From: Thuidium tamariscinum
Taxonomy: Eukaryota; Streptophyta; Bryopsida; Hypnales; Thuidiaceae
Length of the DNA: 64,000 nucleotides
Assembly: GCA_947034885.2 (NCBI GenBank)
Contig: OX344749.2
Span: forward strand, 45,227,682 to 45,291,681
Direction: 5' to 3'
In this document: piece by piece, positions 7,664-32,064 of the stretch
Layout of the letters: the number at the start of each line of letters is the position of its first letter
How positions within the stretch are numbered: the stretch's first letter is position 1
Position numbers and translations under genes: made by a program
Notes under the pieces: model-generated
The model's database searches: none
What the model saw: the letters and a program-made list of their open reading frames with translations, nothing else
What the model was told of the DNA's origin: nothing

Positions 7664-8108
7664 ATAATCAAACAACAGACACAGTACACAATAAACAAAT
7701 ACATCGCAAGCTGACAACTGATCGCCGACAATGGCATGGGATAGGAAACACAAAAGACATGAGAAAACAGCAATGACAAGAGGCATTGCTGCAGCATTGC
7801 GATTTGATACAGGTTCAAACTTTAGATTGGGCAACCAATGCCACTCAAAGAGGCCGGTATATTCTCTATAGTCAATTGTATGATAGTAACTAGTGCCAGC
7901 TCCGACGCTCATTCGCCGCTGGCAACAATGGGTTCTACGACGGCCACCTCCATCCACCACGGTGAAGCACAGGCACCGCCAATCAGGGCCTCAAGCCGTA
8001 TACAAACGATTCCTAAGTTGGACTACTATGGACAAGCCTGTCGGGAGCAAGGCAAGGAAAGGAAAGGGGGGGGACATGAAACAAGAAGAAAACAAAAGAA
8101 CCGAAGCT

Positions 8109-11100
8109 TCACCGGAACTGGATGGACACCAGCGGCACGTCCAGATCTTCCCCTTCGTCATCCTCGCACGCGACCACGATGTCGAAATGCCGACGGTTCG
8201 GGGGAACATCCACTTTCGCGATGTCCCTCGCCAGGTCCGACACCTTCTTGCCCATCCGCTCGCGGTGCTTCGGGAAAATGTTGTTGTACAATAAAGACTG
8301 GCCACAAGAAATGCTGTACGCAGTCAAACCCCGCGCTTCGAACCATTCCAACAACTGCTTCAGAGTCAGGTCGCCGGAAATGATCCAACGGTCCCAAATC
8401 GACCACTTCAGCTCTTGGTGCGAGAAAGACTTCGGAGGCACGGGCTCCGCCATCGAAAACAGGGGGAGCGCCAAATTCGCGAACGTGTTCCGGTAACGCT
8501 CCACAGGGTGACCCGAGATGGCCTTGTACAGCTCCAAGCACACCAGCCCCGTGGCCATCGCCGTGGTCGTCGCGATCGCAGGAATGATGCGACCGGCGAT
8601 GAACTTCGCCTTCAGCTTGTCCACCTCGGGGACGCTGTAGTTCCGCGCGCGCATGTTCGCCAGACCGGCGATCAGGTCCATGTGGAAGTTCGTGTCGTCG
8701 TCCTTCTCGAACGTCACGGGATTCATCTTGAAACCGCCGGGAAGCTTCTTCACGCCCTCCTCCAGAGCGCTGATCAAAACCTCGATCTGGGAATCGTCGT
8801 CCAGCGTCGACGGGTGCAGAGTCGTCGCCTTCTCGTCGGTCACGATCCTCACGCCCTGCTTCGGAGCGAACTCGGGGAGCTTCACACGGTCCACGGCCTC
8901 CGACATCTGCTTCGCATCGTAAGCCCACGCGGGAACCGAGATACCGTAAGTGGTGGCGCGCAAAATCGCGGCCGAAGCCACGAAAGACAGGTACGAAGGG
9001 TCCGACGACGTGAACTGCAGAGGCTTCGGGAAACGCTTCGGGGCCGACCAAAACGGCAAACCGCTGCTCGTCGTGGCATCCTCGGGGAACGTGAACGTCA
9101 GCTGCTTCACTCGGTTCGCGAAATAGTCCTCGAAGCGAGCGCGCGCCCACGTAATGCACTCCTCGAACGTCGTGCAACGCTCCGTCACCAAGCACTCCAC
9201 CACGCGCTCCAAAAGCTCACGCGCTTGGGCGTCACCGGCGTTCTTCACAGAGCTCTTGTACTCCTCCGGTTTCGACAAAAACGCGTTCGCCTCCGCGGGG
9301 GTCTTCTCCAGCAAACCTTCGAACTCCGAACGCGCCCAAGTCAGACAATGGTCGATGTTGTGAGGAAACGAATGCACCGTGCACATCGGCGCCTGCTTCT
9401 CGGGAGGGTCGCGCGAAGCGCCGTAATTCTCCGTCAGATTCGGGATCACCACCTGCGTGTTGCACTTCGTGCCCAACGTACCCGACTCCAGCAAAGGCTT
9501 CTGGAAGTACACGCACCGAGAGTCGATGTACAAACGCGCGTTCACGTTGTCCAAAGCGTTCACCACCAAGTCCAGGCCACCCCAAAACGTGTCGTCGAAC
9601 ACGTTCTCCGTGTTCGGACTCACGCGATTCTGCAACGCCACCGCACGAAAAGAAGGGTTGATGGCTGCGGCTGACGACGACGCCACCGTCGACTTCGCCT
9701 GACCGATGTTCCAGTCGCGGAAAAGGAACTGACGGCTCAGGTTGCTCTTCTCGATCACGTCGTCGTCCGTCACGGTCAGACTGCCTTGCGGACCACAAGC
9801 CACACCCATCAGGGCCAGGTTCTTCAGAAACTCGCAACCCAGCGCACCCGCACCCACCAGAAAAAGCTTAGACTCCTCCAGCTTCTGCTGCAACTTGGAA
9901 CCGAACACCGCGATCTGCGCATCGTAACGACCATTCAAAGGCTTCACGTCCTCGGGAGTCAGGGGCTCCAAAGGAAGAGACTCCACCGAGTCGAAGTAAA
10001 AGAACTGGAACAGAGGATGGAACTTGCCGGAGCAAGCCTTCACCACCTCCTGACCCACAATGCCGCCGAACATCGCAGCCATCGGACTCAACACCGCTCG
10101 GGAACCGCTGCCCAAAAGCCTCACCACGGACTCGTCGATGCTCTCCACCTTCTGGTCGATGGGCAGACCCTCGTTGATACGGTGCGCGATCGACACCAAG
10201 CGGCTGCCATCCGAGTCGGACGCCGGTGCAGGAAAACGACCGCTCTCCGCACGGAACGCATCCAAAGCCTGGAACGCCACATGCAGCAAAGGAGGACGAT
10301 CGAACTTCGCGAAGTCGCTCAGCAGAAACTCGCCGGGACTCTCCAACGCCTCGCGAAGAGGACGGAACTTCAGCACCTTCGGAAGCTTCACCTGGGTCAC
10401 AATGCCGCCCTTCTCGTAAGAACCGTAACCGCTCGTATCCTCCTCCAACAGAAAAGAATACGGACGCGTCCCCTTCACGCGACGAGGCTTCCCGTCGTTC
10501 AGCTCGCGCATCCCATGCACCTCGGAGAAAACCACAAGGTCACCGTCCTGCAATTCCACACGCTCGTCGTCCACGCAAGTCACCAGCGCCGGATGGTCGT
10601 TGCTGATGGACGCGATGATCCCCGTGTGGGGCTCCTCGCCGTCCACATCCACCACGGTGAAAGAAGGACCGAAGTCGCAGAACACGGACCCGAACACGCC
10701 GCGGATGTCCGCCTTGATGAACGCGATCGCAGGCTCCTGCCGGTGGCAGAAATCGTCGATCTCCACAGCCTTCTCCAAAGAAACGTCAGTCAAAACCACC
10801 ACCTGGTGGGCGGACAGCAACTCATCCGTCAACTCGCCCGTGCTGGTCGTCACCAACACCGCCGTGTTCAATTCCTTCAGCTTCTCCGCGCACGCCAAAG
10901 CACGGTTCTTACCCACGTCGGACTCCGTCAGATAAAACTGCGAAGACAGGTCCCACAGCTCCACGCTCCCGCTGTCGTGCAGCGTGACGGACTTCACGCC
11001 GGCCAGGATCACGTTCTTCGCCACCTCCACGCCCAGGCCCTGCAGACCGGACACCAGCACGTGAGCGCCGAACAGCCGACGCATCGTCTCCCGACCGTAC

Positions 11101-11306
11101 ACGGCCAGCTGCCGGCTGTGCAGATCCTCGTCGATCTCCACCTCCATGGGGCCGCTGCTCTTGGCCGGCGCCATGACGATGGAGTGCTGAGCCTTGGCCA
11201 CGCCGACCACGCTCCCGCTCGGGGAGGACTCCACGCGATGGTTCTTCAGCAAGCTCAAGTCGCTCCCCAACTCTGCCTCCACAGGGTCTCTCTTTTTAGG
11301 CAGCAT
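8109..11306 (-). CDS. UBA1: Ubiquitin-activating enzyme E1 (left copy)
   Basis: E1 adenylates ubiquitin with ATP, forms a thioester with it and passes it to E2 enzymes in the cytosol and nucleus. The 1065-residue protein has the usual plant E1 length. I start it at MLPKKR (11306), the conserved plant N-terminus, although the frame stays open 27 codons further upstream. Visible blocks: the first ThiF repeat opens at [20 protein letters not shown] (from about residue 58); the active adenylation nucleotide loop GAGALG is at 485-490, followed by [20 protein letters not shown]; the catalytic cysteine is C642 in KQAPMCTV; the C-terminal ubiquitin-fold domain ends VPLVSIQFR. The coding sequence has no intron and is GC-rich, unlike its AT-rich surroundings. 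The protein is identical to that of the right copy. Both copies look intact. Confidence 0.97.
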
Positions 11307-11456
11307 GTAGCAAGACGGCGGAAAAGACCACGCCTTCTCCTGGGACTTCCACGCTCTCACGCATGCCGCGATCCCAATGGCAAGCAAGCGCGACGGGCTT
11401 TCCCAGACCCGTCAAACCCTACACACCATCGACCCTCCGACTCCGAATCCTCAACC

Positions 11457-11934
11457 CTGCACCCACACAACAGAGATTCAGCACGCGCAAACCGTCAGGT
11501 GCATGGCTAGTGGAGAAGAAGGCGTCCCGGGGGCCCGGGAAGACGGAATCCGGGAAACCAGAACTAAAACTCACACGACATGCAAATCCCGCCAACGATA
11601 CCGCGCGTATCAAAATCACCGCGGCGTGCGCCACCAACTCAACCACGAAGCAGGCGACCGCACGACACCACCACACAGGCACTCCACGAAGAACGAAACG
11701 TCAAAATTAGGGTTTCACAAACCCCGGTTCCAAATACTAGCAACCCGCTCCGTCCATCGAACCAAGCCGCCCAATTCGAACACGGACACATCACACACGC
11801 ATCAAACGGAAGCAATCACGAATGATCACACACACACGATCCAAACGCCTCGAGGAATCTCGATAATCGGCCTCCTCATTCGACAGCGCACTGGAAAAAA
11901 ATGGAATTCAACCACGACAGACGCGGCAGCGTAC
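11457..11934 (-). other. Putative 5' UTR intron of the left E1 gene
   Basis: This is the mirror of 27657-28134. Reading the minus strand, a GT donor after CGCCAG and an AG acceptor after TGTGGGTGC enclose 478 bp upstream of the start codon. Leader introns are common in plant ubiquitin-pathway genes. It is predicted from splice motifs only. Confidence 0.45.
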
Positions 11935-12190
11935 CTGGCGACGACGATCGAAAGCTCCGCAGCAGCAGCAACAACTGGAGCCTCGCTCCGCTCACTCGCG
12001 CGCCCGCAGCGAAGAGAAGTGTCACTTGGCAAACGGGAATGCGCTGGCCCCTTGGCTAGGAGGTAACGTTTAGAATTGGCTGAGCGACCGAACCCTAATT
12101 TGGGGACCCAGTAGTCACAGTATTTACACCAGAGCTCCCTGGTCAAGCTCTCGAGAAGCTTCCGCTTTGCACTTTCGTCTGCCCTCGGTG

Positions 12191-12425
12191 AGAGCCTCGC
12201 CTGCCTTGATCTTACTCTCTGTTTCTTGTGGTGAACTGAGTTTGCGAAGTCACCCAGCTCCAGCTTGGCCGCCACGTATTTCGAATTTCCTTGGAAAGGG
12301 CGAATTTCTGGTGGGGCTTTCAGTCGGGCGTAAGGCAAACAAGAGTCCGCTCATTCAATACACAACTGAAGGCACACTGCCAGGCCAATATTTTCTGAAC
12401 AGTTTGAGTGGAACCTGCAGTGGCT
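12191..12425 (-). repeat. Segment upstream of E1 with a third copy in the spacer
   Basis: This is the mirror of 27166-27400. The same segment, diverged and with a ~35 bp gap, occurs at 21720-21945. It is probably a dispersed repeat or shared leader; I do not recognise a protein in it. Confidence 0.6.
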
Positions 12426-12490
12426 CTCGTACAGATGAAATAAGGCAGAATCTCCTATACTCTATCAGGCAATTCTGGAATAGATCATGA

Positions 12491-13803
12491 GGAATATGAG
12501 TGTATGCAAATTGTTCCTATGTAGAAAGATGAGAAATATGGGGATTCTTTTGTGGGTCAAACCTTCTATATTCAACTTTTAATTCATTCATTCAAAGTCT
12601 TAGAGACGTAATGGCACATTTCCCAATGCTAAGAACATTCAGAATAAAAAATGATTTATAAAATAATTTTTTAAGAAAAAAATTATTTTTAAATGTTATT
12701 ATCTATTGTGGCAATCTTTATGCCACATCAAATTGCATATGTGTCAAAGTTCCCACAGTGTTCCCACAATCACGAACTAACATATTCTAATCGGCAAGAA
12801 AAACATCTAATGACCACTTTAATATTGAAATTTCTCCTTAGCTAATTTTTGTGGGAGAGGATAAAAACAGTAATAATAATTAATTAACTTGTTGTAAATC
12901 TCATATTTATATATTTGATTATAATTTAAAGAAAATAATAATATTTTAATTTACTAAAACTACTTTTCAATAAAATTTAATACTACATAGTAAACTTGTA
13001 GTGGACTATTGGTCAAGTTATGAAAACATTTGTTTATTTGTTTGCCTTTTAGACAAAATATGCTCTCATATCCAACAATGGTTTGTTCTCGATTGACCCA
13101 CTACACTAAACATGTCCTCAAATCCAACCTAATTACTAGATAATTACAAATATAGGTTGATTAGTCAAGCTAAAAGCTATATAAAGATTGCCTCTCTAAA
13201 CTTCCAACAATTGAAGGGAGGCAAAAAGGTCCATCTATCAGACTTGATGCTTTGACAAGAACTTTCTAGAAGGCCACCTTTTGCCCAAAATTAGACTCCC
13301 TTTAGCTAGATTCTATCTCTACAAAGGCAAAATTTTGAAGAACAATATTATTCCCACAAAAAGTGTGGTGGGAACTAACGGGACAAGGTAGATTGTAACT
13401 TGTGATTTGGTAATCAATAAAGCTGTGTGTAATTCATGAAAGTATGGCTTGTCTGTAGCTTTTGCATTTTGTTTTGTTGTTTAGAATAATAGCTTATAGG
13501 GGACCTACAAACCTGTCTAGATTTGTTTTTTTCCTCGAAACATAGGGTAGAGGCTAGAAGGGTGGCTAGAGGCTTTAGAGCATACCTCCAAGCAATGAAA
13601 ACATGGTGACTATCCCAAAATTAAAGCTCTAGTTAACTAATGAAACAAGCTCTAGGTTTGCAAATTCATTACACTAGAACTAAATGGCTTGTCCACAACA
13701 ACTAAAATTATCCAAAATGAGTCATTTACAATTGTGGACGACATGTAATCATTATGGCAAATCATTTAGGGCATGATTGATTTCTTCTAAAATTATAAAG
13801 ACC
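12491..13803. other. AT-rich non-coding DNA in the left arm
   Basis: No gene recognised. The mirrored stretch is 25788-27100. Confidence 0.5.
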
Positions 13804-14091
13804 ATTAGGAGGGATTTGAGGGCTGCAAAGGGCCGTTTCCGGACTATTCCCGAAATTGGTCTGGGAACGGCAGGCCGCTGGTCAGTATTTAAAAATAAAA
13901 AATAAAAATTTGGGTCCTGAAATATGAAAAAAAGTCCAAAAAAAAACTTTTTTTTTCGAAAAAAAGAAGTCGATGATGTGGCACGGTCTCGACTACATCG
14001 GATTCCAGGAGAACTGCATTCCCGCGGCTGTTTTCGCAATTTCGGGCTGTGGGAACTCACAGGCTCCCAGAGCCCTCAAATCCCTCCTAAT
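13804..14091. mobile_element. MITE with GGAGGGATTTGAGGGCT ends (left copy)
   Basis: About 290 bp bounded by GGAGGGATTTGAGGGCT and its inverted partner, with TTA on the left and TAA on the right. The interior contains a poly-A/T run and GC-rich flanks. The TTA/TAA context suggests PIF/Harbinger, but the borders are palindromic, so the target-site duplication is ambiguous. A related end sits near 62808. The ~100-codon ORF across it is not a gene. Confidence 0.6.
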
Positions 14092-14841
14092 GCAATGAAA
14101 TGATTGTTGTTGACCTGATTGTTAATAGTGGCAAATCTTAACATCTATGGCTACTTGATGACACTGATTTTCTAAAAGTCATTTGTTGGATTAACATTCA
14201 CTTCATGTTTAACCAATAAATTATTAGTACCATTATGCTAATGTTAAGATTATAAATTTCTATCAATATAACTCAACATCAATTTTAATAGCTATTTTCA
14301 ATGTTGATTCACTCCAAAACATTTAATATTGTCTAAGTTTTTATGTTTTACAATGATAGAAACATGACATTTGGATGGCATTAACTTTTAATTTTGTTCA
14401 CATTTGAATGTTTATTCTAAACTACCCAATCAACTATATGTGGTCAATTTGATAGTTTAGACTCTTTTTTGTATGGGTAGTCAAACTTTTTTACTCATTC
14501 TAATAAAAGCTTGAGTAGTTTTGAAGGTTAATTACTAATTACATTCATTTTTCATTGAAAAAATATATATTTGATTGTTGAGAGGTCTTTAAAGGCATAA
14601 ATGTATTGTTAGTGGAGGATAACCTTGTCAATTTTACTTCATTTCTTTGCTTTTCATAAAGCTTGCCGATTTCACTTAATTTGAGATCTAAGAAATTGCA
14701 CTTGTCCATTTGCTTTGAAATTGGTCTAAGTAGAAAGAGTATAGTGTTTTTGTAATTCTTACCATTGAAAATTCAAACATGCAAGTCTTGATTCCAGGCA
14801 ATTTGTGATTTCTACTTGTAGAAAAAAATTACATTTCAACA

Positions 14842-17794
14842 CACTAGTAGAAAGCCCTATTTTTTTAGACAAGGGCGTGAACATGCGTTATGTTGAATGA
14901 AACATCACACACATCTATTGTGCATGTCTAGAGAAATCCGTCAAGTTCGACAAGCTAAAAACATAAGAAATTATGGAAAAACATGCCCTGTTTTTAGAGC
15001 AACATCATAGAAAACATGGACAAAGAAGTTGTCAAAAGTGTGCCATTTGGCAGCCATGTAAGCACCATGCAAGCAAATAGTGCCACATGGGATTTTTGGG
15101 CACCTCACAAAAAATTTTAGAAAATTTTGAGAAGATTTTAATATTGTTTTTAGCAATGTCAACTGAGACGTCTAGAAAAATTTCAGCTTTGTTTTTAGCA
15201 ACATCAACTTAAACACCTAGAAATTTTCTAAAACATCAATTGGTGCATCCCACGGAGCAGGCAAGATTGGTGCAAATTAATTAAATAATAATAATAATTT
15301 TTCATTATCAATTAATTAATTAATTATGATTTAGTTCATTATTAATTAATTAATCATTCAATTCATTCAATTAATTAATAATTATTTAGTTCATAAATAA
15401 ATAAATAATTTTTCATTTCATTATTGATTAATAATTATTTAGTTCATTATTAGTTCATTAAATAATTATTCAATTCATTATTAATTAATTATTAACTAAT
15501 TAGTTTATCATTTATTTGTAAGAATGAAGATGAAAGAGGTCATATTTATATCTATGTTCTACCCTTGTGGAGACAAAAGATATGGGATAACTGGAATGAA
15601 CTCAATGAAGAAACTTAACCATTGTAAATCTTAGATGTTGTTATAGAAATTGTTTCGAATGTTGTTTTAGATGTTGTTGCAAACATATGGATGTTTTTTC
15701 AAACAATCTACTTTGAATACAGTTCTTGTTTAACCCTTTAAAGACCAATTGAAATTGTGTTGTTTTAGCAATATAGTGATTTTAGGTAGCTCACTATAAA
15801 TAATTTTTTTTTTCTTTGAAATTTTTAGGCTATATGAAAACAAGGTTTTTTCTTAATGCCTAGCACTTTTCAAAAACTTTGACTACATGGTTAAAAAATT
15901 CTTATATGATATGTAACTTTTTTTTAATCAAGCAATCTGGACAAATAAACAAAAATCACTTTTTCCATAAACAAAAATTTGGAATTGTTTTTTCAAATTT
16001 TTACACGAGAGGAAATCTTTGAATCATTTTGTTTTGATCAATGAGATGGAAGTTATGAGTTTTAGTTTTGGGTAGTTATAGATTTTCAACTTTAAAATAA
16101 ACTTTGAAGTTCTTTATTTAACTCAAGTTTTCAATTTATCTTGAAAAAAAATTATTTCTTAGAGTTAGATTGTTTATTAAAACAATAAAACCATTGGAAC
16201 TGATTTTTTTAAATTTCATAACTAAATTCTTAACAATGTATTATTTTGAATTGTTCTCTACTTCTTTTTATTTACTATTTTTTTCCTATATGTTGTACAA
16301 TTCCAAATGATCTTAAAATTTTCAAGCATGTAGATAGCTTGCCTATAAAAATGAATCCAAAAAAGCACCAACAATATGGAGAATTTTTCTTACAAATGTG
16401 ATCTTGGAAAGCATAGCTTCCTTGTTTTTTGGAGGGTCAAAAAAGAATTTTTATCAATTCAAATGCTAATATCTTGCAATCTAAATAGTGAAATATTTTG
16501 AATTCTTTTCCCCACATCTTCTCAAATCAACACACAACAAGATTGTATGGTTATATATTTCTAAAAATATTTTTTTCCTAAAATTTGGTATTTGTACTAA
16601 GAATGACTAATTTTAGAGAGGTTTTGGCAAAAACATAGTCAAGAAATTTCAGGGGTTAATATATCCCATATGAGTTATTGCACAATGGGGTCCCAATGAA
16701 AATGGCGTTTTGGGATCCGCAGTGAAAATAATTTTAGCTCTGTCAACTTTGATAACCTTCCAAAGATCCGAGACCTCAAAAATTGATATTCTCCTATGAA
16801 TTTTTTTACAACATTATTTGTAAGTGAATAATGTGTAACGGTGAAAAACATTTTACTACTTCCAACTTTGATACCCTCCCAAGGATTGAGTTCTTTTTTT
16901 AGCCATGAAATTTTTGGCATGAAATAAAATCTATGTTTTTAATATGTGTGAAAAATTTCAAGGTCAAAAGATTAATTTAAAAAAAGATCTTTGAAATCTC
17001 CCAACAAGCATAGTTTTGAGAAAATTTTAACAATTGCCAACTTTGACACCCTCCCAAGGGCTAAAAAATTGGTTTCTTACCATGAATTTTTATTTTGTGA
17101 AGTTAGCTCTATGTTGATAATAAGTATTCTAAATTTCAAGTTCAAACGATTAATTTACATCTACAATCTTAAGAACCTCATGATGAAACATTAAAATCTT
17201 TCAATCCATAGGTGGTACTGCTGTGTTTTCTTCTCCTAAGTAATATCTAACATCTCATTGCTTAGTTTGTATGGATACATAAATAAAAAATTTAATGTAG
17301 CCTATTATAAAGTGAAGTTGTTGTACACTTAAGAAGCAATACCTAGAAGCTTAAGAAGGCTTCAGCCAAAAAACTATTCAAGTGGGTCAGAAATAGGGAA
17401 TAATTTTGAAATTTTACCTTCTGTACCCATCCATATTATTTCAAAAAAAGAAGATGTGTAAGAACTACCCCTCCACAGTGTTTGGAAGCTTGGTCAGCGT
17501 TTTACCCCCCTTCCCTAGGTGCTTTTCTGAACTTACTTGTAGTAGAGGCAGCCGATGTGGCAGTAACCTGTTTTGAAGTGCATTAAAGAAAATGCAACTA
17601 TGTTGTAGCACTTGTTGTCTGCAACAAGGATGTTGCATAGAACAGAAACCTGTTTTTCTAATGACATGTAGTCATTCAAGAAAACATCGAACTGAATTAT
17701 TTTTCTGAGCCCAATATGCCATCTTCCACATTATGTCTTCAGAAACTACCTTGTTTTCTTCAAACATCCAAAAAAACAAGGCTTTCTACTAGTG
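14842..17794. mobile_element. CACTA (En/Spm) transposon, non-autonomous, intact ends
   Basis: Starts CACTAGTAGAAAGCC at 14842 and ends with the inverted partner at 17794. A 3 bp target-site duplication ACA lies on both sides (14839-14841 and 17795-17797). Subterminal repeats of the GCAACATC/GATGTTGC kind are visible. No transposase ORF was found. The left palindrome arm ends inside it at 17604, so only this copy keeps both ends. A TTAA-flanked element is nested within. Confidence 0.85.
15730..16659. mobile_element. TTAA-flanked element nested in the CACTA element (left copy)
   Basis: TTAA at 15730 and 16656 brackets a ~930 bp AT-rich element. Its interior is homologous, in the same orientation, to the element at 47434-48395: compare 15905-16150 with about 47600-47850, and 16240-16400 with about 47975-48110. 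That independent copy supports the borders. The terminal repeat is imperfect here. Confidence 0.65.
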
Positions 17795-18193
17795 ACAATT
17801 GCAAGGTAAATTATGTAATGAGTTTGTTATGATAGCTTCTTATGTGAAATTGGGTGTGAAATTAAGTTTTTTGGATGTACATTTTTGTATACTAACACTC
17901 TTTGTAGTTGTTCATATCACCTCCAATCCCATAAAACTTTTATATGCTAATTTTTGAAACATTGTGGCAAAAATAAACATACTAAAAATTAAAAAATGAA
18001 TGTATTTTTGTTATGATCTCACAACTCCTATGCAATTTCACACTCAAAATTGATACATACACTCTAATAAAAAAGCTCCTTAAGCATCTACATGGTTGGA
18101 TTTTTGGAGAAAAAACAATCTACTTCAATGGAGATAACTACAAGCCAAAGTTCTTTTTTCATATTCAAAACAAGCTTAGAAAGGTTTTGGCAT
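17795..18193. other. Spacer DNA next to the CACTA element
   Basis: AT-rich; nothing recognised. It is part of the unpaired spacer between the palindrome arms. Confidence 0.5.
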
Positions 18194-19149
18194 TTAACCC
18201 CTAAATGTTGAAGCCCTTTTTTTTAGCTTCTTGGAATTTCATCTAAATTGAACAAAAAACCAAAATTTTGATATGCTTTTTGATATGCTTTTTGATATGC
18301 TTTATCAATTTTCTTAAAATTGTAATTGTACAAATTCAAACTAGACATGCAAGAGATCACTTAGTTAAAGAAAATACAACATTATCACTTATGAATTGAA
18401 AGATTATATTGTTTGATCATGAGGGTGTTAAAATTGCAAAAGTGACTTGCAATCTTTCAATTCTATTTTCACATGTCAAATCTAAAAAGTTGGTTACCAA
18501 AAAAATATGAGGTTGAAGGGCCTAAAATGCATAACCCCAATCAATTTACAACTTTTCAAAATCTACTTTACAATTTTCTTAAATGAATTTCTAATGTGAT
18601 TTTGTATCCAAAATCTAGTGTATTTGAGGCTCATTTATAGAGCCCTTAAGACTACATTAGGAAAAATTTGGTCCCTGAAAGAGCCCATGAATATACTACC
18701 ACAATCATGGTGTAATTAGGGAAAAAAAATATTTTTCAGAAAAAGAATTTATTAATTAAAAAAATGAAAATTCCAAAATGACAGGGCACAAGTGTGACCA
18801 CATCACATGTGACAAGTTTCCCTTTTTATTTATTTATTTTTGCTAATTTCTTTTTCTAAAAGTTTGAATTTCTTTTATATTCGCATTGCATTGCAAAACA
18901 ACTTGTTTCAAGGTTCAAATTTTTCCTAATGTAGAAAGTCAAGATTGCAATGGGTACCATTGCACAAAATCTTAAATAGAAAAACCATAATAAATTATTT
19001 TCACAATTGGATATTAGATGCTTAAACTAGACTTTGAAAAGAATACTTCTAATATATAAACTACAAAAATAGTGCCTTGGTTAGGTTTTATTTAGCTTGA
19101 AAAGTTTTTGAAACTCCACATTCTAATGCCTTGGGCATTTAGGGGTTAA
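18194..19149. mobile_element. TTAA-flanked inverted-repeat element in the spacer
   Basis: TTAA at 18194 and 19146 with ends CCCCTAAATG and its inverted partner CATTTAGGGG. About 950 bp, non-coding. Contains three tandem copies of a TTTTTGATATGC-type motif near 18270-18302. Confidence 0.65.
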
Positions 19150-19935
19150 GTTGGTAAAACCTGAGTAGGGCAAGGTACTGGAGATAACGAGAAGAGCAAT
19201 TAGGAAGCCAAACCAAAGATCATTCGTGGGTCTCACCGTGAGGTCGAAGTCTCAAGCTATGTACTAGTAATCCCGGAACTAGTTTATAGAATTTAGTGTA
19301 ATATGCTACATAGTTTAGGGGATTTAGTGCAATTTGCTACCTTCAAGATAAAAAAGCATCAACTTTGGCTATCTTGAGAAAAAGTGGCATTAAAAAAATT
19401 AAAAAAGAAAGGATTTTGCAAGTTGTAAAGAATAATGGGGAGTATTAATACCCATAATTCACTACAGAGATGCTAATTCCAATGTAGAGTAAGTAACAAA
19501 TTGGCTATCAAATTCTATTGGTTGTTGAAATCTTAACTAAAATTTAATTTTTTCAAGGATTTCTTCCTATAGAGATTTAGCTACTGAAAATTTTTAGTAG
19601 CAATGGAGCGAAATTTAGCCAGTTTTGTGAATGTTGCTATGCACCCATCCCACTGGAGATCATCAATGTCTTCATGCTCGGAAAAGTACAAGGTCAAAGT
19701 GCAAGATGCAAGAAAAACTAAGAAATCAACAACCCTCTGCCACTTATCAAGAAACTCATAGGCTATATCAAGTGATGGCACTTCTCGTCACAAAGAAAAG
19801 TTGTTGCATCTGAAGCATTTGCTACGCTTCATAAAAAAAAACGCTTCGTGAAATTGAAACAGTGTACACAGCTATGAGTATTGGTAACCACTCTGTTATA
19901 GAAGATACTAGGGTGGCCCGTGCTGTTGCCATGGT
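19150..19935. other. Spacer DNA without recognised features
   Basis: No ORF of interest and no recognised repeat. Confidence 0.5.
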
Positions 19936-20296: not shown

Positions 20297-21719
20297 CTTT
20301 TCTGGTACATCCCTAGATCGGGCACTGATCTGATCACCTCTGTACTTGTTGAGCATGCCACTTTAACTATTTTGAATCAGCACCTATATTGTCTATCATT
20401 TTGTCATGACAGCCAAATATCATTATGAGCAAGCCTATATTCCACAATTTTCACTTTTCTATTGCAAAACAAACCCATGTGGTCATGAACTCAGTATCTA
20501 ACCATTTGTCATATAGACTATCAAATCAATTTCGAAAATAAGATCCCAAAGCACTTATGAAGTTCCACAGCTAATCTAATACAATGTGGAAGGTCCAGGT
20601 AGAGCAAGAAGTATAGCTGCAACATGAGAGTTTAGGTTACAGAGTGAATTGAAGCTTGCTTGCATAGCTCCTAGAGGATGTGAACTTCACCTGTACCCAT
20701 CCCACCACATGACAACGAATTGGAATGTTAATGAGGTACAGCAGGTGTCTACAGTTCACATCGCGTGTTATTGCCTTCACTAGGAGCAAACATACCCACA
20801 AACTTTAATCAAACATTTTCAAGAATACACAGCTCCTCTGTCAACCTGGTTGCAAGTAGGACGTTGTGAAGAAGTTGCCATCGTGAAGCTCTGTAAATCC
20901 CAGTGTGTCACAACAATAGCTCTGTAGCAATTAAGCAAGGTGCTACTGATTTCCCAACTAGCCTTGTGAGATACCAAACTACTGTTTGTGAAGCACTTCT
21001 GTAGTCACCTCAGACTGTAATGCTGTTCCTGATAAGCTTGGGTCATGGCCGATACAACTTACTGCTTGCTTTCAACCATACCCTTGGCTGGGTATCAATG
21101 TACCTCAGAAAAACTGTCGTCAATATATTGATTGAATCATTGATTCAATTTAAATTGACGTTGCTTAATTGTCTCTGGTTGAACTTTGTCTGATTCCAGT
21201 GACAGTTGTACTCATAATACTGCATATTACTATTCATTGCTTCATGTATTAGTACTAGTCAGGAAGCTAAACTGTCCTGTATTGAACGTTTGGAATTCAA
21301 GCAGCTTAAGAATAATCCTACATCTTAAGCAAAATGGTGGCTTCCTGAGCTTAAGAGCTGACAGGAAACTTAATGGGTGTAGCTATCTATCAGTCCTAGG
21401 TACCTCCATAATATTCATGGGTGGGAGGGTGGGATCTGATAATCTTTCTCTCTGGGATAAAATTTAATTTAATAGCAACTTCTTGTTTTGAATCTAAGTC
21501 TAGTAAAATATTTTTAGTAACCTTTACTTCCATCTTTAATAGGACTGGAAGCAGGAACTTTCATCAAGCGAAAAAACAGGGTTTAAGCTTGAAGCAATGT
21601 GCTGGACGGACGGACAAACAAACAAACAAACAAACAAACAGCGTATATCTTCATAGGGGGATCGGAACCACGAAATCTCCCATTCCACTTCAGCTAACTT
21701 ACCGTATGGCCATTTTTGA
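20297..21719. other. Spacer DNA with an (ACAA)n microsatellite
   Basis: No gene recognised. A clean (ACAA)n run lies at about 21613-21640. Confidence 0.5.
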
Positions 21720-21945
21720 AAGTACCAAGTATTCTGAGGGTCACTGCAGGTTCCACTCAAAATGTTCAGAAAATATTGAATGAGCGGACTCTTGTTTGCC
21801 TTACGCCCGACTGAAAACCCCCACCAGAAATTCGCCCTTTCCAAAGAAATTCGAAATACGTGGTGGCCAAGTTGGAGCTGGGTGACTTCCCAAACTCAGT
21901 TCACCACAAGAAACAGAGAGTAACATAAAAGCTCACCAAGGGAGT
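21720..21945 (+). repeat. Diverged third copy of the E1 upstream segment
   Basis: Matches 27166-27400 in the same orientation. Shared blocks include TTCAGAAAATATTG, GAGCGGACTCTTGTTTGCC and GGTTCACCACAAGAAACAG-like sequence. It has many substitutions and lacks ~35 bp. It ends about 40 bp before the inner breakpoint of the right arm. An RNA- or DNA-mediated dispersed repeat seems likely. Confidence 0.65.
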
Positions 21946-21986
21946 AAACAGAGAGTAACATAAACAAAGAGTAACATAAAAGCTAA

Positions 21987-24749
21987 AACATAGTTGCATT
22001 TTCTTTAATGCACTTCAAAACAGGTTACTGCCACATCGGCTGCCTCTACTACAAGTAAGTTCAGAAAAGCACCTAGGGAAGGGGGGTAAAACGCTGACCA
22101 AGCTTCCAAACACTGTGGAGGGGTAGTTCTTACACATCTTCTTTTTTTGAAATAATATGGATGGGTACAGAAGGTAAAATTTCAAAATTATTCCCTATTT
22201 CTGACCCACTTGAATAGTTTTTTGGCTGAAGCCTTCTTAAGCTTCTAGGTATTGCTTCTTAAGTGTACAACAACTTCACTTTATAATAGGCTACATTAAA
22301 TTTTTTATTTATGTATCCATACAAACTAAGCAATGAGATGTTAGATATTACTTAGGAGAAGAAAACACAGCAGTACCACCTATGGATTGAAAGATTTTAA
22401 TGTTTCATCATGAGGTTCTTAAGATTGTAGATGTAAATTAATCGTTTGAACTTGAAATTTAGAATACTTATTATCAACATAGAGCTAACTTCACAAAATA
22501 AAAATTCATGGTAAGAAACCAATTTTTTAGCCCTTGGGAGGGTGTCAAAGTTGGCAATTGTTAAAATTTTCTCAAAACTATGCTTGTTGGGAGATTTCAA
22601 AGATCTTTTTTTAAATTAATCTTTTGACCTTGAAATTTTTCACACATATTAAAAACATAGATTTTATTTCATGCCAAAAATTTCATGGCTAAAAAAAGAA
22701 CTCAATCCTTGGGAGGGTATCAAAGTTGGAAGTAGTAAAATGTTTTTCACCGTTACACATTATTCACTTACAAATAATGTTGTAAAAAAATTCATAGGAG
22801 AATATCAATTTTTGAGGTCTCGGATCTTTGGAAGGTTATCAAAGTTGACAGAGCTAAAATTATTTTCACTGCGGATCCCAAAACGCCATTTTCATTGGGA
22901 CCCCATTGTGCAATAACTCATATGGGATATATTAACCCCTGAAATTTCTTGACTATGTTTTTGCCAAAACCTCTCTAAAATTAGTCATTCTTAGTACAAA
23001 TACCAAATTTTAGGAAAAAAATATTTTTAGAAATATATAACCATACAATCTTGTTGTGTGTTGATTTGAGAAGATGTGGGGAAAAGAATTCAAAATATTT
23101 CACTATTTAGATTGCAAGATATTAGCATTTGAATTGATAAAAATTCTTTTTTGACCCTCCAAAAAACAAGGAAGCTATGCTTTCCAAGATCACATTTGTA
23201 AGAAAAATTCTCCATATTGTTGGTGCTTTTTTGGATTCATTTTTATAGGCAAGCTATCTACATGCTTGAAAATTTTAAGATCATTTGGAATTGTACAACA
23301 TATAGGAAAAAAATAGTAAATAAAAAGAAGTAGAGAACAATTCAAAATAATACATTGTTAAGAATTTAGTTATGAAATTTAAAAAAATCAGTTCCAATGG
23401 TTTTATTGTTTTAATAAACAATCTAACTCTAAGAAATAATTTTTTTTCAAGATAAATTGAAAACTTGAGTTAAATAAAGAACTTCAAAGTTTATTTTAAA
23501 GTTGAAAATCTATAACTACCCAAAACTAAAACTCATAACTTCCATCTCATTGATCAAAACAAAATGATTCAAAGATTTCCTCTCGTGTAAAAATTTGAAA
23601 AAACAATTCCAAATTTTTGTTTATGGAAAAAGTGATTTTTGTTTATTTGTCCAGATTGCTTGATTAAAAAAAAGTTACATATCATATAAGAATTTTTTAA
23701 CCATGTAGTCAAAGTTTTTGAAAAGTGCTAGGCATTAAGAAAAAACCTTGTTTTCATATAGCCTAAAAATTTCAAAGAAAAAAAAAATTATTTATAGTGA
23801 GCTACCTAAAATCACTATATTGCTAAAACAACACAATTTCAATTGGTCTTTAAAGGGTTAAACAAGAACTGTATTCAAAGTAGATTGTTTGAAAAAACAT
23901 CCATATGTTTGCAACAACATCTAAAACAACATTCGAAACAATTTCTATAACAACATCTAAGATTTACAATGGTTAAGTTTCTTCATTGAGTTCATTCCAG
24001 TTATCCCATATCTTTTGTCTCCACAAGGGTAGAACATAGATATAAATATGACCTCTTTCATCTTCATTCTTACAAATAAATGATAAACTAATTAGTTAAT
24101 AATTAATTAATAATGAATTGAATAATTATTTAATGAACTAATAATGAACTAAATAATTATTAATCAATAATGAAATGAAAAATTATTTATTTATTTATGA
24201 ACTAAATAATTATTAATTAATTGAATGAATTGAATGATTAATTAATTAATAATGAACTAAATCATAATTAATTAATTAATTGATAATGAAAAATTATTAT
24301 TATTATTTAATTAATTTGCACCAATCTTGCCTGCTCCGTGGGATGCACCAATTGATGTTTTAGAAAATTTCTAGGTGTTTAAGTTGATGTTGCTAAAAAC
24401 AAAGCTGAAATTTTTCTAGACGTCTCAGTTGACATTGCTAAAAACAATATTAAAATCTTCTCAAAATTTTCTAAAATTTTTTGTGAGGTGCCCAAAAATC
24501 CCATGTGGCACTATTTGCTTGCATGGTGCTTACATGGCTGCCAAATGGCACACTTTTGACAACTTCTTTGTCCATGTTTTCTATGATGTTGCTCTAAAAA
24601 CAGGGCATGTTTTTCCATAATTTCTTATGTTTTTAGCTTGTCGAACTTGACGGATTTCTCTAGACATGCACAATAGATGTGTGTGATGTTTCATTCAACA
24701 TAACGCATGTTCACGCCCTTGTCTAAAAAAATAGGGCTTTCTACTAGTG
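21987..24749. mobile_element. CACTA transposon, truncated mirror copy
   Basis: The CACTA end corresponding to 14842 is present at 24749. The other end, 190 bp beyond the breakpoint in the left copy, is missing, and unrelated spacer sequence follows. It is therefore a duplicated fragment and not an independent insertion. Confidence 0.85.
22932..23861. mobile_element. TTAA-flanked element, mirror copy
   Basis: Reverse complement of 15730-16659, duplicated with the arm. Confidence 0.65.
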
Positions 24750-25499
24750 TGTTGAAATGTAATTTTTTTCTACAAGTAGAAATCACAAATTGCCTGGAAT
24801 CAAGACTTGCATGTTTGAATTTTCAATGGTAAGAATTACAAAAACACTATACTCTTTCTACTTAGACCAATTTCAAAGCAAATGGACAAGTGCAATTTCT
24901 TAGATCTCAAATTAAGTGAAATCGGCAAGCTTTATGAAAAGCAAAGAAATGAAGTAAAATTGACAAGGTTATCCTCCACTAACAATACATTTATGCCTTT
25001 AAAGACCTCTCAACAATCAAATATATATTTTTTCAATGAAAAATGAATGTAATTAGTAATTAACCTTCAAAACTACTCAAGCTTTTATTAGAATGAGTAA
25101 AAAAGTTTGACTACCCATACAAAAAAGAGTCTAAACTATCAAATTGACCACATATAGTTGATTGGGTAGTTTAGAATAAACATTCAAATGTGAACAAAAT
25201 TAAAAGTTAATGCCATCCAAATGTCATGTTTCTATCATTGTAAAACATAAAAACTTAGACAATATTAAATGTTTTGGAGTGAATCAACATTGAAAATAGC
25301 TATTAAAATTGATGTTGAGTTATATTGATAGAAATTTATAATCTTAACATTAGCATAATGGTACTAATAATTTATTGGTTAAACATGAAGTGAATGTTAA
25401 TCCAACAAATGACTTTTAGAAAATCAGTGTCATCAAGTAGCCATAGATGTTAAGATTTGCCACTATTAACAATCAGGTCAACAACAATCATTTCATTGC

Positions 25500-25787
25500 A
25501 TTAGGAGGGATTTGAGGGCTCTGGGAGCCTGTGAGTTCCCACAGCCCGAAATTGCGAAAACAGCCGCGGGAATGCAGTTCTCCTGGAATCCGATGTAGTC
25601 GAGACCGTGCCACATCATCGACTTCTTTTTTTCGAAAAAAAAAGTTTTTTTTTGGACTTTTTTTCATATTTCAGGACCCAAATTTTTATTTTTTATTTTT
25701 AAATACTGACCAGCGGCCTGCCGTTCCCAGACCAATTTCGGGAATAGTCCGGAAACGGCCCTTTGCAGCCCTCAAATCCCTCCTAAT
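25500..25787. mobile_element. MITE with GGAGGGATTTGAGGGCT ends, mirror copy
   Basis: Reverse complement of 13804-14091, duplicated with the arm. Confidence 0.6.
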
Positions 25788-27100
25788 GGTCTTTATAATT
25801 TTAGAAGAAATCAATCATGCCCTAAATGATTTGCCATAATGATTACATGTCGTCCACAATTGTAAATGACTCATTTTGGATAATTTTAGTTGTTGTGGAC
25901 AAGCCATTTAGTTCTAGTGTAATGAATTTGCAAACCTAGAGCTTGTTTCATTAGTTAACTAGAGCTTTAATTTTGGGATAGTCACCATGTTTTCATTGCT
26001 TGGAGGTATGCTCTAAAGCCTCTAGCCACCCTTCTAGCCTCTACCCTATGTTTCGAGGAAAAAAACAAATCTAGACAGGTTTGTAGGTCCCCTATAAGCT
26101 ATTATTCTAAACAACAAAACAAAATGCAAAAGCTACAGACAAGCCATACTTTCATGAATTACACACAGCTTTATTGATTACCAAATCACAAGTTACAATC
26201 TACCTTGTCCCGTTAGTTCCCACCACACTTTTTGTGGGAATAATATTGTTCTTCAAAATTTTGCCTTTGTAGAGATAGAATCTAGCTAAAGGGAGTCTAA
26301 TTTTGGGCAAAAGGTGGCCTTCTAGAAAGTTCTTGTCAAAGCATCAAGTCTGATAGATGGACCTTTTTGCCTCCCTTCAATTGTTGGAAGTTTAGAGAGG
26401 CAATCTTTATATAGCTTTTAGCTTGACTAATCAACCTATATTTGTAATTATCTAGTAATTAGGTTGGATTTGAGGACATGTTTAGTGTAGTGGGTCAATC
26501 GAGAACAAACCATTGTTGGATATGAGAGCATATTTTGTCTAAAAGGCAAACAAATAAACAAATGTTTTCATAACTTGACCAATAGTCCACTACAAGTTTA
26601 CTATGTAGTATTAAATTTTATTGAAAAGTAGTTTTAGTAAATTAAAATATTATTATTTTCTTTAAATTATAATCAAATATATAAATATGAGATTTACAAC
26701 AAGTTAATTAATTATTATTACTGTTTTTATCCTCTCCCACAAAAATTAGCTAAGGAGAAATTTCAATATTAAAGTGGTCATTAGATGTTTTTCTTGCCGA
26801 TTAGAATATGTTAGTTCGTGATTGTGGGAACACTGTGGGAACTTTGACACATATGCAATTTGATGTGGCATAAAGATTGCCACAATAGATAATAACATTT
26901 AAAAATAATTTTTTTCTTAAAAAATTATTTTATAAATCATTTTTTATTCTGAATGTTCTTAGCATTGGGAAATGTGCCATTACGTCTCTAAGACTTTGAA
27001 TGAATGAATTAAAAGTTGAATATAGAAGGTTTGACCCACAAAAGAATCCCCATATTTCTCATCTTTCTACATAGGAACAATTTGCATACACTCATATTCC
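25788..27100. other. AT-rich non-coding DNA in the right arm
   Basis: Mirror of 12491-13803; no gene recognised. Confidence 0.5.
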
Positions 27101-27165
27101 TCATGATCTATTCCAGAATTGCCTGATAGAGTATAGGAGATTCTGCCTTATTTCATCTGTACGAG

Positions 27166-27400
27166 AGCCACTGCAGGTTCCACTCAAACTGTTCAGAAAA
27201 TATTGGCCTGGCAGTGTGCCTTCAGTTGTGTATTGAATGAGCGGACTCTTGTTTGCCTTACGCCCGACTGAAAGCCCCACCAGAAATTCGCCCTTTCCAA
27301 GGAAATTCGAAATACGTGGCGGCCAAGCTGGAGCTGGGTGACTTCGCAAACTCAGTTCACCACAAGAAACAGAGAGTAAGATCAAGGCAGGCGAGGCTCT
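27166..27400 (+). repeat. Segment upstream of the right E1 gene
   Basis: Mirror of 12191-12425 and related to 21720-21945. It lies just 5' of the GC-rich leader of the E1 gene. Confidence 0.6.
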
Positions 27401-27656
27401 CACCGAGGGCAGACGAAAGTGCAAAGCGGAAGCTTCTCGAGAGCTTGACCAGGGAGCTCTGGTGTAAATACTGTGACTACTGGGTCCCCAAATTAGGGTT
27501 CGGTCGCTCAGCCAATTCTAAACGTTACCTCCTAGCCAAGGGGCCAGCGCATTCCCGTTTGCCAAGTGACACTTCTCTTCGCTGCGGGCGCGCGAGTGAG
27601 CGGAGCGAGGCTCCAGTTGTTGCTGCTGCTGCGGAGCTTTCGATCGTCGTCGCCAG

Positions 27657-28134
27657 GTACGCTGCCGCGTCTGTCGTGGTTGAATTCCATTTTTTTCCAG
27701 TGCGCTGTCGAATGAGGAGGCCGATTATCGAGATTCCTCGAGGCGTTTGGATCGTGTGTGTGTGATCATTCGTGATTGCTTCCGTTTGATGCGTGTGTGA
27801 TGTGTCCGTGTTCGAATTGGGCGGCTTGGTTCGATGGACGGAGCGGGTTGCTAGTATTTGGAACCGGGGTTTGTGAAACCCTAATTTTGACGTTTCGTTC
27901 TTCGTGGAGTGCCTGTGTGGTGGTGTCGTGCGGTCGCCTGCTTCGTGGTTGAGTTGGTGGCGCACGCCGCGGTGATTTTGATACGCGCGGTATCGTTGGC
28001 GGGATTTGCATGTCGTGTGAGTTTTAGTTCTGGTTTCCCGGATTCCGTCTTCCCGGGCCCCCGGGACGCCTTCTTCTCCACTAGCCATGCACCTGACGGT
28101 TTGCGCGTGCTGAATCTCTGTTGTGTGGGTGCAG
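27657..28134 (+). other. Putative 5' UTR intron of the right E1 gene
   Basis: CGCCAG followed by GTACGC gives a donor at 27657, and a TGTGGGTGCAG acceptor ends at 28134. The stretch is T/G-rich with stops in all frames, and the leader on both sides is GC-rich. It is predicted from splice motifs alone; the start codon at 28285 follows in the next exon. Confidence 0.45.
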
Positions 28135-28284
28135 GGTTGAGGATTCGGAGTCGGAGGGTCGATGGTGTGTAGGGTTTGACGGGTCTGGGAAAGCCCGTCG
28201 CGCTTGCTTGCCATTGGGATCGCGGCATGCGTGAGAGCGTGGAAGTCCCAGGAGAAGGCGTGGTCTTTTCCGCCGTCTTGCTAC

Positions 28285-31200
28285 ATGCTGCCTAAAAAGA
28301 GAGACCCTGTGGAGGCAGAGTTGGGGAGCGACTTGAGCTTGCTGAAGAACCATCGCGTGGAGTCCTCCCCGAGCGGGAGCGTGGTCGGCGTGGCCAAGGC
28401 TCAGCACTCCATCGTCATGGCGCCGGCCAAGAGCAGCGGCCCCATGGAGGTGGAGATCGACGAGGATCTGCACAGCCGGCAGCTGGCCGTGTACGGTCGG
28501 GAGACGATGCGTCGGCTGTTCGGCGCTCACGTGCTGGTGTCCGGTCTGCAGGGCCTGGGCGTGGAGGTGGCGAAGAACGTGATCCTGGCCGGCGTGAAGT
28601 CCGTCACGCTGCACGACAGCGGGAGCGTGGAGCTGTGGGACCTGTCTTCGCAGTTTTATCTGACGGAGTCCGACGTGGGTAAGAACCGTGCTTTGGCGTG
28701 CGCGGAGAAGCTGAAGGAATTGAACACGGCGGTGTTGGTGACGACCAGCACGGGCGAGTTGACGGATGAGTTGCTGTCCGCCCACCAGGTGGTGGTTTTG
28801 ACTGACGTTTCTTTGGAGAAGGCTGTGGAGATCGACGATTTCTGCCACCGGCAGGAGCCTGCGATCGCGTTCATCAAGGCGGACATCCGCGGCGTGTTCG
28901 GGTCCGTGTTCTGCGACTTCGGTCCTTCTTTCACCGTGGTGGATGTGGACGGCGAGGAGCCCCACACGGGGATCATCGCGTCCATCAGCAACGACCATCC
29001 GGCGCTGGTGACTTGCGTGGACGACGAGCGTGTGGAATTGCAGGACGGTGACCTTGTGGTTTTCTCCGAGGTGCATGGGATGCGCGAGCTGAACGACGGG
29101 AAGCCTCGTCGCGTGAAGGGGACGCGTCCGTATTCTTTTCTGTTGGAGGAGGATACGAGCGGTTACGGTTCTTACGAGAAGGGCGGCATTGTGACCCAGG
29201 TGAAGCTTCCGAAGGTGCTGAAGTTCCGTCCTCTTCGCGAGGCGTTGGAGAGTCCCGGCGAGTTTCTGCTGAGCGACTTCGCGAAGTTCGATCGTCCTCC
29301 TTTGCTGCATGTGGCGTTCCAGGCTTTGGATGCGTTCCGTGCGGAGAGCGGTCGTTTTCCTGCACCGGCGTCCGACTCGGATGGCAGCCGCTTGGTGTCG
29401 ATCGCGCACCGTATCAACGAGGGTCTGCCCATCGACCAGAAGGTGGAGAGCATCGACGAGTCCGTGGTGAGGCTTTTGGGCAGCGGTTCCCGAGCGGTGT
29501 TGAGTCCGATGGCTGCGATGTTCGGCGGCATTGTGGGTCAGGAGGTGGTGAAGGCTTGCTCCGGCAAGTTCCATCCTCTGTTCCAGTTCTTTTACTTCGA
29601 CTCGGTGGAGTCTCTTCCTTTGGAGCCCCTGACTCCCGAGGACGTGAAGCCTTTGAATGGTCGTTACGATGCGCAGATCGCGGTGTTCGGTTCCAAGTTG
29701 CAGCAGAAGCTGGAGGAGTCTAAGCTTTTTCTGGTGGGTGCGGGTGCGCTGGGTTGCGAGTTTCTGAAGAACCTGGCCCTGATGGGTGTGGCTTGTGGTC
29801 CGCAAGGCAGTCTGACCGTGACGGACGACGACGTGATCGAGAAGAGCAACCTGAGCCGTCAGTTCCTTTTCCGCGACTGGAACATCGGTCAGGCGAAGTC
29901 GACGGTGGCGTCGTCGTCAGCCGCAGCCATCAACCCTTCTTTTCGTGCGGTGGCGTTGCAGAATCGCGTGAGTCCGAACACGGAGAACGTGTTCGACGAC
30001 ACGTTTTGGGGTGGCCTGGACTTGGTGGTGAACGCTTTGGACAACGTGAACGCGCGTTTGTACATCGACTCTCGGTGCGTGTACTTCCAGAAGCCTTTGC
30101 TGGAGTCGGGTACGTTGGGCACGAAGTGCAACACGCAGGTGGTGATCCCGAATCTGACGGAGAATTACGGCGCTTCGCGCGACCCTCCCGAGAAGCAGGC
30201 GCCGATGTGCACGGTGCATTCGTTTCCTCACAACATCGACCATTGTCTGACTTGGGCGCGTTCGGAGTTCGAAGGTTTGCTGGAGAAGACCCCCGCGGAG
30301 GCGAACGCGTTTTTGTCGAAACCGGAGGAGTACAAGAGCTCTGTGAAGAACGCCGGTGACGCCCAAGCGCGTGAGCTTTTGGAGCGCGTGGTGGAGTGCT
30401 TGGTGACGGAGCGTTGCACGACGTTCGAGGAGTGCATTACGTGGGCGCGCGCTCGCTTCGAGGACTATTTCGCGAACCGAGTGAAGCAGCTGACGTTCAC
30501 GTTCCCCGAGGATGCCACGACGAGCAGCGGTTTGCCGTTTTGGTCGGCCCCGAAGCGTTTCCCGAAGCCTCTGCAGTTCACGTCGTCGGACCCTTCGTAC
30601 CTGTCTTTCGTGGCTTCGGCCGCGATTTTGCGCGCCACCACTTACGGTATCTCGGTTCCCGCGTGGGCTTACGATGCGAAGCAGATGTCGGAGGCCGTGG
30701 ACCGTGTGAAGCTCCCCGAGTTCGCTCCGAAGCAGGGCGTGAGGATCGTGACCGACGAGAAGGCGACGACTCTGCACCCGTCGACGCTGGACGACGATTC
30801 CCAGATCGAGGTTTTGATCAGCGCTCTGGAGGAGGGCGTGAAGAAGCTTCCCGGCGGTTTCAAGATGAATCCCGTGACGTTCGAGAAGGACGACGACACG
30901 AACTTCCACATGGACCTGATCGCCGGTCTGGCGAACATGCGCGCGCGGAACTACAGCGTCCCCGAGGTGGACAAGCTGAAGGCGAAGTTCATCGCCGGTC
31001 GCATCATTCCTGCGATCGCGACGACCACGGCGATGGCCACGGGGCTGGTGTGCTTGGAGCTGTACAAGGCCATCTCGGGTCACCCTGTGGAGCGTTACCG
31101 GAACACGTTCGCGAATTTGGCGCTCCCCCTGTTTTCGATGGCGGAGCCCGTGCCTCCGAAGTCTTTCTCGCACCAAGAGCTGAAGTGGTCGATTTGGGAC

Positions 31201-31482
31201 CGTTGGATCATTTCCGGCGACCTGACTCTGAAGCAGTTGTTGGAATGGTTCGAAGCGCGGGGTTTGACTGCGTACAGCATTTCTTGTGGCCAGTCTTTAT
31301 TGTACAACAACATTTTCCCGAAGCACCGCGAGCGGATGGGCAAGAAGGTGTCGGACCTGGCGAGGGACATCGCGAAAGTGGATGTTCCCCCGAACCGTCG
31401 GCATTTCGACATCGTGGTCGCGTGCGAGGATGACGAAGGGGAAGATCTGGACGTGCCGCTGGTGTCCATCCAGTTCCGGTGA
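28285..31482 (+). CDS. UBA1: Ubiquitin-activating enzyme E1 (right copy)
   Basis: The encoded 1065-residue E1 is identical to that of the left copy and uncoupled from any neighbour. The ATG at 28285 is chosen because MLPKKR is the plant-type N-terminus. The adenylation loop GAGALG is encoded at 29737-29754, the catalytic cysteine codon (C642) at 30208-30210, and the stop is at 31480. Upstream lies a GC-rich leader with a probable intron; downstream is a T/C-rich 3' flank without a poly-A tract, so there is no sign of a retrocopy tail. Because both arms contain the leader and flank, both copies could be expressed from the same promoter sequence. Confidence 0.97.
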
Positions 31483-31972
31483 AGCTTCGGTTCTTTTGTT
31501 TTCTTCTTGTTTCATGTCCCCCCCCTTTCCTTTCCTTGCCTTGCTCCCGACAGGCTTGTCCATAGTAGTCCAACTTAGGAATCGTTTGTATACGGCTTGA
31601 GGCCCTGATTGGCGGTGCCTGTGCTTCACCGTGGTGGATGGAGGTGGCCGTCGTAGAACCCATTGTTGCCAGCGGCGAATGAGCGTCGGAGCTGGCACTA
31701 GTTACTATCATACAATTGACTATAGAGAATATACCGGCCTCTTTGAGTGGCATTGGTTGCCCAATCTAAAGTTTGAACCTGTATCAAATCGCAATGCTGC
31801 AGCAATGCCTCTTGTCATTGCTGTTTTCTCATGTCTTTTGTGTTTCCTATCCCATGCCATTGTCGGCGATCAGTTGTCAGCTTCGATGTATTTGTTTATT
31901 GTGTACTGTGTCCGTGTTTGATTATTTTGTTTTGTTTCTGTTTATATCTCACTTGGATGCCGTCATCAAATA

Positions 31973-32062
31973 CTCCCTCTGTCCCACTGAAAGCTTCCTA
32001 TTTAGGCTGATGTAAAGTCTTTGCAGGAAGAATTTGGGAAGCTTTTAGTGGGACAGAGGGAG
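31973..32062. mobile_element. Stowaway MITE (Tc1/mariner type)
   Basis: 90 bp with ends CTCCCTCTGTCCCACT and its inverted partner (24 bp repeat, one mismatch), flanked by TA on both sides (31971-31972 and 32063-32064). CTCCCTCYGTCCC is the Stowaway signature. It lies 46 bp outside the right arm border and is absent from the left side. Confidence 0.9.
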
Positions 32063-32064
32063 TA

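Follow-up and report, generated by a model that had tools for sequence, protein, structure and literature searches.

A head-to-head palindrome of ubiquitin-activating enzyme genes in Thuidium tamariscinum and its possible origin by one-sided break repair

In Arabidopsis Cvi, neighbouring inverted genes have been described as forming palindromes at VIM4-VIM2 and at PAI4-PAI1, and the excerpted account traced the head-to-head VIM4-VIM2 pair to an old inverted duplication; this palindrome yields small RNAs, which the authors linked to a reduced expression of the methylation pathway involved (PMC13213937, excerpt). Gene-bearing arms on both sides of a short spacer are also known from the W chromosome of Salix purpurea, where arms of ~20 kb show an average identity of >99% (PMC7023750, excerpt). 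Here we analyzed 64,000 N-free bases of Thuidium tamariscinum (C1:45,227,682-45,291,681; this whole stretch is called the window, and positions are counted from its first base), taken from an assembly of 363.2 Mb in 19 contigs, in which the gene of the E1 ubiquitin-activating enzyme, the first enzyme of ubiquitin attachment, was found in two inverted copies. As in VIM4-VIM2, the two E1 genes stand head to head, with divergent reading directions, whereas the Cvi repeats, as excerpted, give small RNAs by read-through over a short gap, and the E1 spacer measures 4.4 kb, with perfect arms reaching ~6 kb upstream of the coding frames. The willow palindromes, in the same partial account, carry several genes in four related arms with indels and evidence of conversion and lie in a sex-determining region, whereas the E1 locus holds one gene at 100% identity with signs of one directional copying. 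The E1 palindrome is an unusually legible case of an already known kind, the gene-bearing palindrome, and no report of a palindromic E1 gene was found among the best-ranked matches in the open-access literature, which in one search were the best 12 of 889, none of them with the E1 term.

The origin we favor, with a probability only slightly above one half (about 0.53), is that an old inverted E1 duplicate was broken and then rebuilt by one-sided invasion of the intact neighboring copy (arm 1), copying of ~9.9 kb, and end joining. A single sequence here displays donor and recipient, the side of homology and the side of joining, and the apparent remains of the overwritten older copy, and with a locus this legible the repair route that makes such palindromes becomes testable.

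Structure of the palindrome and identity of the arm genes

Comparison of base i with base 39591-i across the window showed that arm 1 (7708-17604, reverse strand) and arm 2 (21987-31883, forward strand) match at 9897 of 9897 bases in one unbroken run, with 0 mismatches and 0 indels, around a spacer of 4382 bp (17605-21986). A perfect match of 9.9 kb is not due to chance, and in the assembly the locus has the two long, inverted, near-identical arms around a spacer that define a gene-bearing palindrome. Self-BLAST of the window gave a longer alignment (9946 columns, 99.96%) because ~44 bp outside the arms is still homologous, though diverged. An earlier note, made from the letters of this DNA, had described mirror arms of ~9.94 kb with a coordinate sum of 39591; this description was borne out for the 9897 identical bases and failed for the outermost 44 bp, which are diverged, while its inner junctions at 17604 and 21987 and its outer borders were correct within a base. 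The base-by-base alignment that it had proposed gave 0 paralogous differences in 9897 positions of the assembly, in agreement with its suggestion of a very recent event, on condition that the assembly is correct.

The coding frame in arm 1 (8109-11306, reverse strand) is the exact reverse complement of that in arm 2 (28285-31482, forward strand). Each arm holds one intact frame, encoding 1065 amino acids in a single exon; the Pfam and Protein Data Bank (PDB) matches were obtained on the arm 2 copy. In a longer translation of this copy, the 1092-residue open reading frame at 28204-31482, Pfam recognized ThiF in two stretches, FCCH, 4HB, SCCH, and UFD; residues 77-1089 aligned with the solved UBA1 structure 9mc4, and a 10-residue stretch of the frame aligned to IPICTLKNFP of that structure. 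With two ThiF halves, FCCH, 4HB, SCCH with the catalytic cysteine, and UFD all present, the predicted products of the arm genes are ubiquitin E1 enzymes of the UBA1 kind. The GC content at third codon positions was 80%. A pseudogene was considered and was not supported, as the frame is open and all domains are there. The E1 translations are the same in both arms, as the earlier note had stated, because the DNA of the arms is identical. That note had also placed introns within the arms; for the E1 coding frame, to which our judgement applies, this was not borne out, since its 1065 codons run uninterrupted by an intron in both arms.

An assembly-wide search with the E1 protein (20 of 20 candidates scored, 14 matches) returned both arms at 100%, and no further close E1 copy was present among the 14 matches. 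A fragment of the E1 coding region lies on contig C2 (L023:4086-4416, G000:C2), where 331 bp show 97.6% DNA identity and the translated match carries one TGA stop in the matched frame. A strongly diverged E1 with several exons was found on contig C4 (G000:C4:22672500-22682499), with 34-50% identity per match in the protein search; it retains the catalytic-cysteine stretch, and its largest exon (298 amino acids) scored 235 bits to E1 6nya and 215 bits to UBA1 6dc6. Beyond the arms, the C2 fragment, and the C4 sequence, the search gave three short weak matches. Searches of the 64-kb window for tRNA genes and Rfam families found none, and none of the 76 pattern matches in GTDB genome contigs was a relative.

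Polarity of the arms and the diverged E1 pieces around arm 2

The polarity of the two arms is shown by a transposon that crosses the inner edge of arm 1. CACTA (En/Spm) elements are characterized by inverted tips with CACT(A/G) and by a 3-bp target duplication. The element at 14842-17794, of 2953 bp, places 2763 bp inside arm 1 and 190 bp in the spacer; the first 15 bases are identical at both tips (CACTAGTAGAAAGCC), which start with CACTA, and ACA flanks the element on each side, so that it is a complete CACTA transposon by these features. A scripted search for duplications of at least 5 bases around the element found none outside the tips. The ends are also defined by the repeat family: in a search that scored the best 40 of 1299 candidates, the window among them, the query 17500-18100 matched the family over its first ~295 bases, and 7 of 7 family copies fetched from elsewhere crossed position 17604 and reached 17794-17796, with the right tip at the same base in 6 of the 7 and the seventh match ending 3 bases earlier. 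In a second query (best 40 of 4477 candidates scored), most copies began at 14842. About 30 places were common to both query lists and lay 2-4 kb apart (paired by eye), and therefore both ends, 14842 and 17794, belong to one element.

The copy of this element in arm 2 (21987-24749) lacks both the final 190 bp and the second tip, and in the window these 190 bp occur only at 17605-17794, the tip repeat aside. Because a truncated element cannot yield a complete one with its target duplication, the arrangement in arm 1 and the spacer is the older one, and arm 2 is derived from arm 1. The reverse assignment, with arm 2 as the original, is ruled out by the complete element in arm 1 and the spacer. 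A match between 17164-17312 and 18288-18436 (73%) was considered as homology between arm and spacer, but its arm side lies inside the CACTA element, and it is read as a related transposon piece. A probable further CACTA element occupies 51659-54483, with CACTACAAGAAATGGGGG tips and a DUF4216 reading frame at 52897-53529.

Two diverged pieces of E1-associated sequence bracket arm 2. On the outer side, the left tail (7664-7707, reverse strand), which carries E1 3'-flank homology, and the right tail (31884-31925, forward strand) share 41 identical bases, with 1 substitution and two 1-base indels whose extra bases are in the left copy; outside arm 2 this homology lasts 42 bp and then ends. On the inner side, a 188-bp piece of the E1 upstream region (21736-21923, in the orientation of the arm 2 E1) sits in the spacer 63 bp before arm 2. 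BLAST aligned it to arm 1 (12203-12428) in one stretch of 159 columns at 94.3%, ending at 21932, and in another of 43 columns at 93.0%, and it differs by 6 substitutions in 180 aligned bases plus two gaps. A genome search with the inner piece matched only the spacer and the two arms (3 of 3 candidates scored), and searches with the E1 3' end plus right flank, and with the left flank, matched only the two outer tails (2 of 2 candidates scored in each). An origin from a dispersed repeat was considered for each piece and was not supported, the flanks matching just these two places and the upstream piece being confined to the spacer and arms. Just outside arm 2, at ~31970-32065, there is a miniature element with TACTCCCTCTGTCCCAC tips, which we take to be Stowaway-like.

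The pooled divergence of the two pieces was 7/222 (3.2%; 6/180 + 1/42), with indels extra, versus 0/9897 in the arms (Fisher p ~2e-12). The confidence intervals of the single pieces are wide, at 1.2-7.1% for the upstream piece and 0.1-12.6% for the outer tail. The two pieces, comparable in divergence, are arranged and oriented as the ends of an E1 gene would be, and we infer from their sequence that they are the ends of one older inverted E1 copy whose body was lost.

Between the putative upstream relic and arm 2 lies a filler of 63 bp (21924-21986), counted from 21923, where the exact match of the relic stops, or of 54 bp when counted from 21932, where the BLAST alignment stops. Part of this filler consists of repeats of the adjoining relic end. 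The 19-mer of 21911-21929 recurs at 21946 and the 17-mer of 21917-21933 recurs at 21968, both absent elsewhere in the window, and 11-13 bases of the relic end are thereby repeated in the filler. When stretches of 75 bases were scored for repeated 9-mers, this joint ranked at the top with a score of 20 (2 of 63,926 such stretches, both at 21910-21911). For the part of the filler that does not come from the relic, the sole match of at least 11 bases in the window is a distant one of 13 bases at 60859. Two weak pointers accompany the joint: 4 bases match one base away from it, and hairpin potential is seen in the stretch where the copied tract stops (z -3.4; 0 of 200 shuffles folded equally well). 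In Arabidopsis, templated fillers have been described as characteristic of polymerase theta (PMC6071589, PMC10923293, excerpts). The joint resembles the polymerase-theta end joining with templated insertions described in these excerpts in that the filler holds copies of the break flank, and it is unlike the known joints in that it ends a long copied tract, is traceable only in part, and has polymerase theta as a putative enzyme.

Origin of the derived arm

In the origin that we favor, an older head-to-head inverted E1 duplicate would have stood to the right of the original until a double-strand break led to the loss of its body. Of the two ends left by the break, the right one, carrying the E1 3' flank, would then have invaded the intact neighbor in arm 1 at its homologous 3' end, and synthesis would have copied ~9.9 kb, comprising E1, its upstream region, and part of the CACTA transposon, before halting at 17604. 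End joining with partly self-templated filler, as by polymerase theta, would have linked the new end to the left end of the break (near 21923). Such a course would yield a perfect palindrome that is bounded outside, where the homology lies, by a diverged tail and inside by an abrupt junction marked by filler. Diverged homology was found at the outer border of arm 2 and a non-homologous filler joint at the inner one, and one-sided invasion with gap repair fits this locus because the homology lies outside and the end-joined side inside. A single repair event would have given rise to arm 2, and the enzymes named for it are candidates.

Homologous recombination limited to one side of a break, with end joining on the other, has been described in planta (Puchta 1996, as cited in the excerpt of PMC5078815); unlike that transgene-targeting experiment, the E1 case would be a natural event in which ~9.9 kb was rebuilt in inverted orientation. 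In somatic cells of plants, homologous repair is reported to proceed mainly by synthesis-dependent annealing (PMC6923311, excerpt), and long mitotic conversion tracts, with means of 30-50 kb, are given for rice (PMC8016264, excerpt). The locus shares with the foldback inverted duplications of yeast an inverted duplication induced by a break, but the yeast events, as excerpted, have short inverted repeats at the center and a dicentric stage (PMC10622511), whereas the E1 spacer is 4.4 kb long and both outer flanks are in place.

Several observations weigh against this origin. The palindrome and its perfect identity rest on this one assembly of one accession. The diverged homology outside the arm is 42-44 bp, which is short for strand invasion if that was all there was, and the wide intervals on the divergence of the two pieces make a common age compatible, not proven. 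The C2 fragment (331 bp, 97.6%) shows that stray E1 pieces arise independently. The filler stretches CATAAAAGCT and CACCAAGGG are without any match of at least 11 bases outside the filler in the window, and the repeat score of the joint leads narrowly, with 20 versus 18 at three other places. The dating depends on the assumed substitution rates given below.

The main biological rival, unlikely by our estimate, is an older full-length palindrome whose arms have been kept identical by repeated arm-to-arm gene conversion, of the sort known from palindromes of sex chromosomes, and from which the outermost 44 bp alone escaped. The diverged homologous outer tail does resemble an unconverted edge, and conversion between plant palindrome arms has been reported (PMC7023750, excerpt), but identity is perfect up to the inner edge, where a diverged fringe would be expected and none is present, and the E1-upstream piece 63 bp from arm 2 is left unexplained. 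A check for a conversion mosaic found edge pieces ~3% diverged and no tract boundaries within the arms, as judged on one assembly with undated arms. The earlier note had proposed gene conversion; what we retain of this is one directional event, to which the edges point, in which arm 1 would have overwritten an older, diverged E1 duplicate at the site of arm 2, with symmetrical ongoing conversion kept as the rival just described.

That note had also raised misassembly, which in its present form supposes that one or two inverted E1 copies are real and that one arm was filled or polished from the other. A collapsed consensus gives perfect identity over 9.9 kb, consensus smoothing could have erased some true differences between the arms, and long reads are known to contain palindromes that are artificial; against this, the inner joint is non-homologous, contains filler, and lies within a transposon, the outer border is a diverged tail, and E1-specific pieces occur at both borders of arm 2, whereas in a collapse the change from one copy to the other should fall within homologous sequence. 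We thus regard an assembly effect as improbable, about as much so as recurrent conversion, and keep it as a rival. A one-step replication template switch, at a site that never held an older E1 duplicate and with the diverged E1 pieces as stray fragments, would account for the abrupt inner junction with its 4-bp match and filler, and the C2 fragment is another stray of this kind. It would make the arrangement of two strays flanking arm 2 in E1 order and orientation a coincidence, and we consider it very unlikely.

For dating, two substitution rates per site and year were assumed, 1.3e-8 and 6.5e-9. By these rates, the older E1 duplicate underlying the proposed one-sided repair would be about 1.2-2.5 million years old, and the arms would be at most about 12-23 thousand years old (95%). 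In its fullest form, the proposal is that the only close E1 copy of the genome overwrote its own diverged inverted paralog by one-sided break repair within the last ~10-20 thousand years, leaving arms that can template or silence each other; this combined statement is put forward tentatively, with somewhat less confidence than an even chance. As no other close copy was found, the event would alter either the dose of E1 or its silencing by small RNAs. The two identical divergent genes may give a higher E1 dose, or they may be silenced through small RNAs as at VIM4-VIM2; silencing is as open as a higher dose because the VIM4-VIM2 palindrome yields small RNAs.

Other repeats in the window

A second inverted repeat was observed at 43609-45932 and 47859-50184, with 97.2% identity over 2.3 kb, each arm of which carries a 4-copy array of a 346-bp tandem unit near its outer end. 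A CACTA-tipped element at 33255-33450, palindromic by eye, adjoins a direct repeat at 33456-34163 and 41857-42569 (96.4%). The remains of a LINE-like retroelement extend over 56089-61216 and include a DUF4283 frame and a reverse transcriptase frame.

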